Assembly (NCBI RefSeq): GCF_003387375.1
Contig: NZ_QUNG01000007.1
Location: forward strand, 1-64,000
DNA from: Marinomonas pollencensis
Lineage (GTDB): Bacteria > Pseudomonadota > Gammaproteobacteria > Pseudomonadales > Marinomonadaceae
Reading direction: 5' to 3'
Length of the DNA stretch: 64,000 bases
A program made the translations under genes and the position numbers. Shown here piece after piece: positions 3,820-61,445 of this stretch. The notes under the pieces are model-generated. The model saw nothing but the letters and a program-made list of their open reading frames with translations. It was not told the origin of the DNA and did no database searches. Position 1 is the stretch's first letter. Every line of letters begins with the position of its first letter.

Positions 3820-4311
3820 TTAGGCCTCACGAGGATCTGGGTTAGCAAGAACAGTTTCAGTTTGTTGAGTACGAAACGCATCAATCTTTTTTGCCAGCTC
3901 TGGGTCCGAGTTCGCCAGAATTTGACAAGCCAATAGACCCGCATTAAAGGCTCCTGCTGTGCCTATGGCTAAGGTGCCAACCGCAACGCCTTTAGGCATT
4001 TGAGCGATCGACAATAAACTGTCCATGCCGTTTAAAGCTTTGCTCTGTACTGGCACACCCAGCACTGGTAGGCGAGTGTGCGCAGCAACCATGCCTGGTA
4101 AGTGAGCTGCACCGCCAGCGCCACCAATAATGACTTGAAAGCCTTTTTCAGCAGCTTGTTCAGCAAACTCAGTTAGCTTGACTGGTGTGCGGTGGGCAGA
4201 AACCACTTCAACGTGATAGTTCACGCCAAGTATGTCCATGATTTCAGCGGCACTTTCCATAGTAGCCCAGTCACTTTTAGATCCCATAATAAGGGCAACT
4301 TTTGCTTGCAA
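3820..4311 (-). CDS. purE: N5-carboxyaminoimidazole ribonucleotide mutase PurE
   Basis: This is the class I mutase that converts N5-CAIR to CAIR in purine synthesis. From the TTG start at 4311 the protein has 163 residues, the family's usual length, and begins [18 protein letters not shown]. The MGSKSD, SAHRTP and [12 protein letters not shown] motifs that line the nucleotide pocket are intact. A longer frame open to 4338 would add nine residues (KITIRRIVL) unlike known PurE N-termini. The CAGGAG at 4319-4324 sits seven bases before the TTG, which decides the start. First gene of the purEK operon; the stop codon abuts the purK ATG. Confidence 0.95.
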
Positions 4312-10297: not shown

Positions 10298-11797
10298 TTA
10301 GTCTAGAGTGTCCAATGCTTCTGTGTATTCATCGAACTTATCAGTCACTGCTTTCTCTGGAGCTCCGCTAATCAGGCTAAAGATAACGATAGCAATAGTT
10401 GAGAAGATGAAGCCAGGTACAATTTCGTATAGATCGAAAATGCCACCGTGAAGCTGTTTCCAAACAACGATAGTTACGCCACCCACAATGATACCAGCAA
10501 GGGCGCCATTGCGGTTCATGTTACGCCAGAACAGGCTCAACAGGATGGCTGGGCCAAATGCTGCGCCGAAACCAGCCCATGCGTAAGATACTAAGCCAAG
10601 TACCGAGCTGTTCGGGTTTAGGGCAAGAATCAAAGCAACAATAGAGATGGCAACAACAGCAAAGCGTCCAACGTTAACGATTTCTTTTTGTGATGCATTC
10701 TTATTGATCAGCTGCTTGTAGAAGTCTTCAGCCAAAGCGGAAGAAGAAACCAATAATTGGGAATCCGCTGTACTCATGATCGCCGCTAGGATAGCAGCAA
10801 GTAGGATACCAGCAACCACTGGGTGGAAGACCGCGTTAACCATGATCATAAAGATTTTTTCTGGGTCTGCTAGGTTGCCGCCTAAGTGGTTATCAACGTA
10901 AACGATACCAGACAAGCCAATAGCAAGTGCACCAGCCATACATAAGATTGTCCAAATCACCGCGATACGACGAGCAGACGTGATGTCTTTGTTAGAGCGA
11001 GAGGCTTTAAAGCGCGCTAGAATATGAGGTTGACCGAAGTAACCTAGGCCCCAAGCGACTAGTGAGATAATGCCGATTGCAGACAGAGGCTCACCTTTAA
11101 CGTTAGTCCAGATGTCTAATAGCTCTGGGTTTTTAGCTGCCAGTGTCGTAGACAATTCTGACCAGCTGCCATCAAGAGCAACGACAGGAACGATCATTAA
11201 AGCGGCAGCCATCATTAAACCTTGTACTAGGTCGGTCCATGCAACCGCTAGGAAACCACCGAATAAAGTGTAAGAAACCACACATACAGTACCGATGACA
11301 ACGGCGTAGGTGTAATCAAGGTGGAAAACCGTTTCAAACAATTTACCGCCGGCTACTAGACCTGAACTTGTGTAAAACAAGAAAAATAGCAGGATGAAAG
11401 CCGCAGAAATGGTTTGAATAAGTTTGGATTTATCTTGAAAGCGCGTTGCTAGGAAGTGAGGAATCGTTAGCGAGTTATCTGCTTTAATACTGTATGTACG
11501 CAAACGTTTTGCACACAATAACCAGTTTAACCAGGTGCCGACTAACAAACCGCCGCCAAGCCAAATAGATTCCATACCAGAGGCAAATGCGTAACCAGGT
11601 AGACCAAGCAATAACCAGCCACTCATATCAGATGCGCCAGCGGAAATAGCAGTAGGCCAAGGTCCTAGTGATCGACCTCCAAGAAAATAGTCTTCTGCGT
11701 TGGATGTAAGTTTGTAGGCATAAAGCCCAATACCAAGCATGACAATAAGATAAGCTAAAAACGTAAAGCTTATCGCATAACCAGTGTTCTCAATCAT
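10298..11797 (-). CDS. putP: Sodium/proline symporter PutP
   Basis: 499 residues, the PutP length, with about thirteen transmembrane helices. It imports proline with sodium across the inner membrane for use as carbon, nitrogen or compatible solute. N-terminal SNAEDYFLGGRSLGPWPTA and ISAGASDMSGWLLLGLPGYAF carry the substrate and sodium residues of the solute:sodium symporter family; MSTADSQLLVSSSALAEDF is the second family signature. It is transcribed alone with AGGGA before the ATG. putA is not nearby, so a dedicated catabolic role is not shown by context. Confidence 0.93.
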   Translation of the reverse strand: MIENTGYAISFTFLAYLIVMLGIGLYAYKLTSNAEDYFLGGRSLGPWPTAISAGASDMSGWLLLGLPGYAFASGMESIWLGGGLLVGTWLNWLLCAKRLRTYSIKADNSLTIPHFLATRFQDKSKLIQTISAAFILLFFLFYTSSGLVAGGKLFETVFHLDYTYAVVIGTVCVVSYTLFGGFLAVAWTDLVQGLMMAAALMIVPVVALDGSWSELSTTLAAKNPELLDIWTNVKGEPLSAIGIISLVAWGLGYFGQPHILARFKASRSNKDITSARRIAVIWTILCMAGALAIGLSGIVYVDNHLGGNLADPEKIFMIMVNAVFHPVVAGILLAAILAAIMSTADSQLLVSSSALAEDFYKQLINKNASQKEIVNVGRFAVVAISIVALILALNPNSSVLGLVSYAWAGFGAAFGPAILLSLFWRNMNRNGALAGIIVGGVTIVVWKQLHGGIFDLYEIVPGFIFSTIAIVIFSLISGAPEKAVTDKFDEYTEALDTLD

Positions 11798-60260: not shown

Positions 60261-60306
60261 CTAAGTTAGAGAATATGAGCTTGAAATTTAGAGGGTAATT
60301 TTATAT

Positions 60307-60321
60307 TGTTACGTTATAACA
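60307..60321. promoter_or_regulatory. Putative Zur box upstream of znuA
   Basis: TGTTACGTTATAACA resembles the gammaproteobacterial Zur operator core TGTTATAnTATAACA (five of seven positions in the left arm, all seven in the right). It ends 26 bp before the znuA ATG, a suitable place for zinc-dependent repression. Confidence 0.55.
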
Positions 60322-60347
60322 TTTATTGAGAGAGTGGTTTAACGATA

Positions 60348-61445
60348 ATGAATAAGTTGTTAGTTGCCCTAGGTACGTCTGTTTTGTCGCCTGTTTTGTT
60401 GGCTAAGCCAATCATTGTTACCAGTATTAAGCCTGTATCTATGGTAGTAGCCGCCGTTGCAGGCGATCACGCTAAGATTGAGCAAATAGTTTCTAGTACG
60501 GCTTCACCTCATGATTTTGCTTTGCGTCCTTCGGATCTTGCTAAAATTAGTCAAGCTGACACGGTTGTTTGGGTTGGTGAATCGCTCGAGCGCTTTTTAG
60601 AAAAACCACTAGAGAATGCAGGTAAAGAAGACTCGGCAATTGAATGGCTCGCGTTAACAGGCATGACGCTGCAAAATTTTGATGAAGGTCATCACGATGA
60701 CCATGCAGATCATGACGAACATCACGATGACCATGCAGATCATGACGAACATCACGATGAGCATGCAGATCATGACGAACATCACGATGACCATGCAGAT
60801 CATGACGAACACCACGATGACCATGCAGATCATGACGAACATCACGATGACCATGCAGATCATGACGAACATCACGATGACCATGCAGATCATAACGAAC
60901 AGGCTTCCGGCCATGAAGGGCATCACCACGAAGGGGTGAACCCACATGTTTGGCTGTATCCAGAGAACGCCAAAGTATTAGCAGAAGCGGTTGCCAAGCG
61001 TTTATCAAAGATAGACCCTGAAAATGCAGCAAGCTACCAAGCTAACTTGGCCGATTTCGAAAAAGGATTGGCGCTAAAAGATGCTGAATTGAAAGCGTCA
61101 CTAGCGACAGTAAAAGACGTCCCTTATATCGTTTTCCACGATGGTTATGGTTATTTTGAGGATCACTATGGTTTGGATCATGTTGGCGAGGTGACTGTTA
61201 GCCCAGAACGTAAGCCGGGTGCGAAGAAGATCGCCGAGATTCGCGAAATGATTAACCATAACAAAGTGCAATGTGTCTTCAGCGAACCACAGTTTAGCCC
61301 AGCAATTGTGAGAACCTTGCTTGATGGTACGGATGTGAATTCAGTGCCTTTGGACCCATTAGGAACAGACATTGCAATGAATCGCGGCGCCTATTTGGCT
61401 TTCTTGTCTGAAATTGGTGGCCAATTTATGAGCTGTTTACGCTAG
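60348..61445 (+). CDS. znuA: Zinc ABC transporter periplasmic binding protein with His/Asp repeats
   Basis: 365 residues. Signal peptide (LLVALGTSVLSPVLLA) then the cluster A-I binding-protein fold: SIKPVSMVVAAVAGDHAKI, the first ligand His in ASPHDFALRPSDL, a second in GVNPHVWLYPENA and a third in YIVFHDGYGYFE. Between the first two lies an unusually long acidic/His loop (residues about 111-195) made mostly of seven tandem HHDDHADHDE units encoded by 30-bp repeats. Such loops bind zinc and aid uptake or sensing in ZnuA. No znuB or znuC is adjacent, so the permease and ATPase are encoded elsewhere. Confidence 0.93.
   Translation: MNKLLVALGTSVLSPVLLAKPIIVTSIKPVSMVVAAVAGDHAKIEQIVSSTASPHDFALRPSDLAKISQADTVVWVGESLERFLEKPLENAGKEDSAIEWLALTGMTLQNFDEGHHDDHADHDEHHDDHADHDEHHDEHADHDEHHDDHADHDEHHDDHADHDEHHDDHADHDEHHDDHADHNEQASGHEGHHHEGVNPHVWLYPENAKVLAEAVAKRLSKIDPENAASYQANLADFEKGLALKDAELKASLATVKDVPYIVFHDGYGYFEDHYGLDHVGEVTVSPERKPGAKKIAEIREMINHNKVQCVFSEPQFSPAIVRTLLDGTDVNSVPLDPLGTDIAMNRGAYLAFLSEIGGQFMSCLR
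60690..60899 (+). repeat. Seven tandem 30-bp repeats inside znuA
   Basis: Seven in-frame copies of a 30-bp unit beginning CATCACGATGACCATGCAGA and encoding HHDDHADHDE. Copies differ by only a few single bases (copy 3 has GAGCATG, copy 5 CACCACG after the boundary, copy 7 CATAACG), so expansion looks recent. Confidence 0.9.

Follow-up and report, generated by a model that had tools for sequence, protein, structure and literature searches.

Tandem in-frame repeats in the histidine-rich loop of the zinc-binding protein ZnuA in Marinomonas

The znuA locus and its repeat array

The gene under study in the 64-kb window (the whole stretch of DNA that was analysed) is znuA (60348..61445, + strand), which encodes the 365-aa protein that binds zinc in the periplasm for the Znu ABC importer. 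The protein scores 305.7 bits against the NCBIfam equivalog NF007091 (ZnuA), for which the cut-off is 268, and 205.5 bits against Pfam PF01297, and znuA is the sole PF01297 match in the source genome (3.87 Mb, 42 contigs). The NF007091 cut-off is passed in 46 of the 48 Marinomonas genomes, the exceptions being G017, which has a giant loop, and G041, which has no match. Alignment to 7rcj places the three histidine ligands for zinc at His55 in an SPHD motif (codon 60510..60512, + strand), His200 in NPHVW (60945..60947, + strand) and His264 in FHDGY (61137..61139, + strand), and each motif is present at 47 of 47 loci of the genus. The residue preceding the first histidine ligand is proline at all 47, whereas in E. 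coli this position is the ligand Glu59; the definition of ZnuA admits either glutamate or water as the fourth ligand (PMC8900738, drawn on in excerpt, as are the other papers cited by PMC number).

Between the first and second ligands, and directly 5′ of the His200 codon, lies a loop rich in histidine and acidic residues (residues 109-198; 60672..60941, + strand), bounded with HMMs of the N- and C-terminal core. It has 90 aa, of which 32 are His and 38 Asp or Glu, in keeping with the His/Asp zinc loop described by the first-pass annotation of this DNA. The loop is predicted to be disordered: in an AlphaFold model built on a 26-row alignment (mean pLDDT 80.3, pTM 0.75), pLDDT is at least 90 at 207 of 365 residues and falls below 50 across nearly all of residues 114-193. 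The same model was looked at for the two-lobed ZnuA fold with its long linking helix, and a helix is present at residues 224-253 (pTM 0.75).

Within the loop is a 30-bp tandem array of seven units encoding HHDDHADHDE (60690..60899, + strand), in frame with the znuA open reading frame. TRF run on the whole window reports it at 60690-60901 (period 30, 7.1 copies, 97% matches, score 403), as one of two rows; the second, a 15-bp repeat of 1.9 copies at 10787-10815, scores 51. Alignment of the units reveals three substitutions in all: units 1, 2, 4 and 6 are identical DNA, unit 3 carries GAC>GAG (D>E), unit 5 a silent CAT>CAC and unit 7 GAC>AAC (D>N). The first-pass annotation had proposed recently expanded 30-bp tandem repeats in a ZnuA gene, and this holds up, the family match and the seven in-frame units being clear and the near-identical DNA looking recently duplicated. 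It had also counted seven copies of HHDDHADHDE differing by a few bases; the number of units and the few differences stand, but only five of the seven are exact in protein.

A protein rich in His and Asp may look repetitive without any duplication of DNA, and a permutation test was therefore run in which synonymous codons were shuffled within each array 2000 times, with protein and codon usage kept. In the window array, 55 of the 57 pairs of codons that specify the same residue one unit apart match exactly, where the shuffles lead one to expect 34.4 (p=0.0005, the lowest value that 2000 permutations can give). The array is due neither to chance nor to composition alone. A 161-aa antisense open reading frame (60547-61032, minus strand) and other small open reading frames overlap it, and these are treated as by-products of the repeat; a second hit of the genome search, on the minus strand, falls in this stretch as well.

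Short repeats may also be collapsed or falsely expanded in assembly, and the source genome is a draft of 42 contigs, which leaves the exact count of seven provisional; moreover, the largest array of the genus, that of G017 with 45 copies, holds an ambiguous base. However, the units in the window are told apart by their own substitutions, and arrays with a TRF score of at least 100 occur in five of seven single-contig relatives, an observation that bears on the phenomenon and not on the count of seven. An artefact of this kind is very unlikely.

Upstream of znuA is a Zur-like operator, ATATTGTTACGTTATAACATTTA (60303..60325, + strand), with 16 of 22 matches to what we take to be the E. coli Zur consensus, and this is the sole site to score at least 16 in a scan of the + strand of the window. 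A first scan of promoters, confined to a narrower stretch, gave at least 15/22 in 37 of 47 genus znuA genes, the 95th percentile of shuffled sequence being 13-14, while the other 10 scored 10-13/22, the level of shuffled sequence. When a wider upstream stretch was taken, the core TGTTAYNTTATAAC was present in 47 of 47, a count made without a shuffle control. These matches suggest that the znuA of the window is probably under Zur control. Genes for an ABC-3 permease (znuB-like), an ABC ATPase (znuC-like) and a Fur-family regulator are adjacent to one another on another contig of the source genome (G000:C5), and the znuC-like and znuB-like products presumably partner the ZnuA of the window. A search of the 8-kb zur-znuCB stretch yielded no Zur-like site.

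On the same contig, a NicO-family (nickel transport) gene (L102:6196-7128, minus strand) adjoins the Fur-family, znuC-like and znuB-like genes and contains a perfect 6-bp repeat of 7.7 copies within a (His-Asp)n stretch; the C-terminus of the ZnuC-like protein and the N-terminus of the Fur-family protein are likewise His-rich.

Loop length and repeat turnover in Marinomonas

The genus was surveyed in 48 Marinomonas genomes, one per species, and znuA was found in 47; the one genome with no match, G041, is 77% complete. With HMMs of the flanking core used to set its limits, a loop could be defined at 47 of 47 loci. The median length is 74 aa (range 26-301), 38 of 47 exceed 50 aa, and the loops carry from 7 to 98 histidines; for zinc SBPs the loop region has been given as 12-50 residues (PMC4542158). 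The largest, L078 from G017, is made up of an 18-bp unit (HDDHKG) in about 45 copies and reaches about 301 aa in an open reading frame of 580 aa, a size that is provisional, the assembly being a draft with one ambiguous base inside the array.

Comparators from the rest of the order have a median loop of 28 aa (range 16-80), with 10 of 93 loci above 50 aa. Arrays with a TRF score of at least 100 are present in 32 of 47 genus loops against 4 of 93 order loci, and at a score of at least 50 the counts are 45 of 47 and 20 of 93; the comparison takes loci as unrelated by descent. The comparators come from 97 places outside the genus that passed a filter of E<=1e-40, of which 94 were fetched; G236 and G190 (matched over the second half only, near contig starts) and G241 (internal stop) were left out, the loop of L192 was not definable, giving 93 loci, and two fetched loci share one genome (G173). 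A further 47 loci (L004-L050) had been picked out in part through His-rich peptide patterns and, being biased, were not used as a comparison; their median loop is 34 aa, and 4 of 47 have a TRF score of at least 100.

The 32 genus arrays scoring at least 100 have 17 different best periods. Outside the loop, across 177 kb of flank and core from the 47 loci, a TRF score of at least 100 is reached at one locus and of at least 50 at two; arrays are thus nearly absent from flank and core, and their presence in the loop is not the effect of a repeat-rich genome. When synonymous codons are permuted, 18 of the 32 arrays reach p<0.01 and 21 reach p<0.05. Eleven are without signal, one of which (L059) is uninformative, having one codon per residue, and the others are taken to be older or degenerate. 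Judged from these sequences, the loop of ZnuA has the behaviour of a coding minisatellite across the whole of Marinomonas.

In every genus loop with a TRF call (46 of 46) the best period is a multiple of three, which agrees with the expectation of the first-pass annotation that a change of unit number keeps the frame. A phase-variable contingency locus, switching on and off, was considered and rejected because the reading frame is kept.

In two metagenome-assembled genomes, titled Cognatishimia sp. and Alphaproteobacteria bacterium, the ZnuA loop measures 114 aa (L035, with a 117-bp array of 2.1 copies) and 74 aa (L037, with a 45-bp array of 3.2 copies) respectively. Repeat-built ZnuA loops seem to occur outside the order Pseudomonadales too.

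The distribution of the periods among related species was assessed on a core-protein tree. With best periods as labels ('no strong array' being one label), the tree requires 29 changes, where the minimum possible is 17 and label shuffles average 30.9, with 29 or fewer in 17 of 200; the labels are crude, the related arrays L055, L053 and L051 being labelled 45, 81 or 90, and so 29 overstates the independent origins, and what is claimed is many separate expansions, not 29. On this evidence array periods appear to follow the core tree weakly at most, related species often differing in their unit.

Closer comparisons tell of changes in copy number. Each of the six genus pairs with core DNA identity of at least 90% (one genome is common to two of the pairs) has loops of unequal length, namely 92/83, 84/48, 52/48, 49/33, 53/49 and 53/59 aa. 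In the case of G008 and G015, both draft assemblies, a 4.07-kb alignment at 97.0% identity has a sole gap of 27 bp, exactly one unit. The first-pass annotation had expected copy number to vary between strains; the difference seen here is between close Marinomonas relatives, one genome per species being compared. The nearest relative of the window, G007, has 77.7% core DNA identity to it; TRF reports a 30-bp period in its loop (2.4 degenerate copies, 78%, score 86), whereas a separate period scan prefers 9 bp, with the codon signal absent. Judged by eye, HHEDHADHDD-HHNEHADHDE in G007 matches the unit of the window. We infer that the 30-bp unit predates the lineage of the window and was amplified or homogenised there, shared ancestry resting on TRF and the eye.

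Long loops might substitute for a missing ZinT partner, and indeed ZinT (PF09223) was found in none of the 47 genus genomes searched (of 48). However, a search of 245 order genomes, a set that includes 11 from Marinomonas, found it in only six, and most comparators are short-looped and without ZinT. Moreover, the loops of the ZinT carriers G079, G109 and G235 measure 56, 80 and 55 aa and belong to the ten comparator loops that exceed 50 aa. Compensation for ZinT was rejected, the three carriers with a fetched znuA having long loops, and we regard it as the least credible of the explanations considered here. The other carriers, G158, G180 and G253, have no ZnuA match at the search cut-off. All six ZinT-carrying order genomes belong to one family (f33), in which the loops of L172, L191 and L152 measure 55-80 aa.

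Constraint on the loop and its possible function

When adjacent units are compared across the 32 pooled arrays, nonsynonymous differences number 267 at 4238 sites and synonymous differences 263 at 649, a pN/pS of 0.155 by simple counting, in which units were picked by DNA similarity and are not independent and in which two arrays, L060 and L072, contribute 74 of the 267. Since a synonymous change at a His, Asp or Glu codon is a transition, transitions were also compared alone; they occur at 0.0224 per site at codon positions 1 and 2 against 0.1535 at position 3, a ratio of 0.15 that becomes 0.12 in arrays with at least 90% matches. Across 47 of 47 genus loops the His fraction stays within 0.24-0.42. 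The low rate of nonsynonymous change and the steady His fraction together mean that the units turn over with their composition preserved and, as far as such comparisons indicate, that the protein sequence of the loop is constrained while its DNA changes.

These figures bear on the simplest account of the loop, that it is an unconstrained disordered spacer gathering slippage repeats as a neutral by-product, its length and sequence being irrelevant. The wide scatter of lengths (26-301 aa) is what this account would lead one to expect, loops are dispensable in several of the proteins tested (excerpts of PMC7858048 and PMC9820375), and the self-similar codons CAY, GAY and GAR are plausibly prone to slippage. 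Neutrality is nevertheless difficult to reconcile with the depression of nonsynonymous change between units (pN/pS and transition ratio as above), with a His fraction held in all 47 loops despite differing units and with periods that are multiples of three in 46 of 46 loops, and we consider it unlikely.

The reading that we favour, to which we assign a probability of about 0.72, is that the array is a minisatellite in coding sequence, situated in the disordered His/Asp-rich loop of a genuine and probably Zur-controlled ZnuA, reshaped by slippage and selected for its histidine and acidic residues as a low-affinity zinc antenna or buffer. Slippage in replication, or unequal recombination between units, would gain or lose whole multiples of codons, and selection would purge changes that spoil the His/acid make-up. 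By analogy with other ZnuA proteins, AdcA and ZrgA, the loop would act as a tethered, low-affinity, many-site antenna or buffer beside the cleft, raising the local zinc concentration and passing zinc to the His55/His200/His264 site. Extra units would then add capacity or capture rate, not affinity at the main site.

This last point departs from the first-pass annotation, in which it was suggested that copy number may tune zinc affinity, an idea that the literature on other loops does not support. Deletion of the loop of Citrobacter koseri ZnuA keeps one high-affinity site and loses two of three zinc sites (PMC8900738), and loop sites in other proteins are reported to be 3-4 orders of magnitude weaker (PMC4542158). 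Loop deletion spares the tight site and the sites of the loop are weak, so a gain of units should raise capacity or capture rate and not tighten binding at the main site; an effect of unit number on these, rather than on zinc affinity, is the likelier. In the case of AdcA, zinc recruitment under scarcity is helped by the loop and, redundantly, by a second domain, and loss of the loop alone is without significant effect on growth (PMC7858048), while the loop of ZrgA is described as 'non-essential' (PMC9820375). The function of the ZnuA loop 'remains enigmatic' according to a 2022 paper (PMC8900738), and no measured zinc binding for any loop as long as that of Marinomonas ZnuA was found in the literature searched.

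A regulatory role has also been put forward in print, namely that the loop senses high zinc (Wei et al. 2007, cited in PMC8900738), to which we add that a loop sensing excess could damp delivery to ZnuB, a longer loop damping more; the sensor itself was proposed by Wei et al., and damping in proportion to length is our extension. Low-affinity sites would suit a sensor of high zinc. However, there is said to be little conclusive evidence for either role of the loop (in the excerpt of PMC8900738), and the present sequences give nothing that favours braking over capture; a brake is, in our estimation, about as improbable as neutrality.

A further step would be to see the loop as an evolvable dial of zinc capacity. 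A slippage-prone coding minisatellite would supply graded changes, always in frame, in how many zinc sites are tethered, and selection would keep it both mutable and His/acid-rich, so that lineages, and also conspecific strains, could quickly adjust how the periplasm captures or buffers zinc. We offer this larger proposal tentatively and consider it rather unlikely.

Low-complexity regions of prokaryotes, His-rich ones included, have already been surveyed (PMC6821194), and zinc SBPs with long His-rich loops are familiar. In open-licence PMC, a scope outside which most subscription papers lie, none of the titles or abstract starts among the matches listed referred to ZnuA loops as minisatellites or to Marinomonas ZnuA. 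What the present survey offers is a single genus with 47 orthologues in which the ligand motifs are conserved and the loops run from 26 to about 300 residues, including a pair (G008/G015) whose loops differ by a single repeat unit. This is a natural series of variants in which loop length could be measured against zinc stoichiometry, capture rate or nothing, and it is an example of a disordered metal-binding segment in which the DNA turns over while composition is constrained. The array in the window is a single instance of a process that runs through the genus.

Comparison with known systems

The protein of the window resembles the cluster A-I ZnuA proteins of E. coli (2OGW/2PRS), C. koseri (7RCJ) and Salmonella (2XQV) in sequence family and in its three His ligands, and also in its C-terminal cysteines and in having a structurally disordered His/Asp/Glu loop that precedes the second ligand; probable Zur control is common to both. 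It differs in the length of its loop (90 aa, and 26-301 in the genus, where 12-50 residues are given for zinc SBPs in PMC4542158) and in the tandem units of which this is built, in having Pro in place of the ligand Glu59, and in that its gene does not adjoin the zur-znuCB genes. The ZnuA of P. aeruginosa likewise has no carboxylate before the first His ligand, according to the excerpt of PMC4542158, but the acidic region that forms its loop has 15 residues.

Disordered His-rich loops are also found in ZrgA of V. cholerae and PA4063 of P. aeruginosa, where they bind several, mostly weak, zinc ions, and the lower capacity of PA4063 has been ascribed to its shorter loop (PMC9820375). The fold of these proteins is different, and their loops are not described as tandem repeats in the excerpt of the same paper. 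AdcA of S. pneumoniae shares a His-rich loop, which aids zinc recruitment under scarcity (PMC7858048). Unlike the protein of the window, AdcA has a loop of 17 residues and an extra ZinT-like domain, and is a lipoprotein.

At the level of DNA, the closest parallel is with coding minisatellites, or VNTR loci, which consist of tandem in-frame units that are gained or lost between relatives. The znuA arrays are alike in both respects, gain and loss being known here from comparison between species. They depart from the general class in that the Marinomonas unit itself differs from one species to another while the composition of the loop stays the same.
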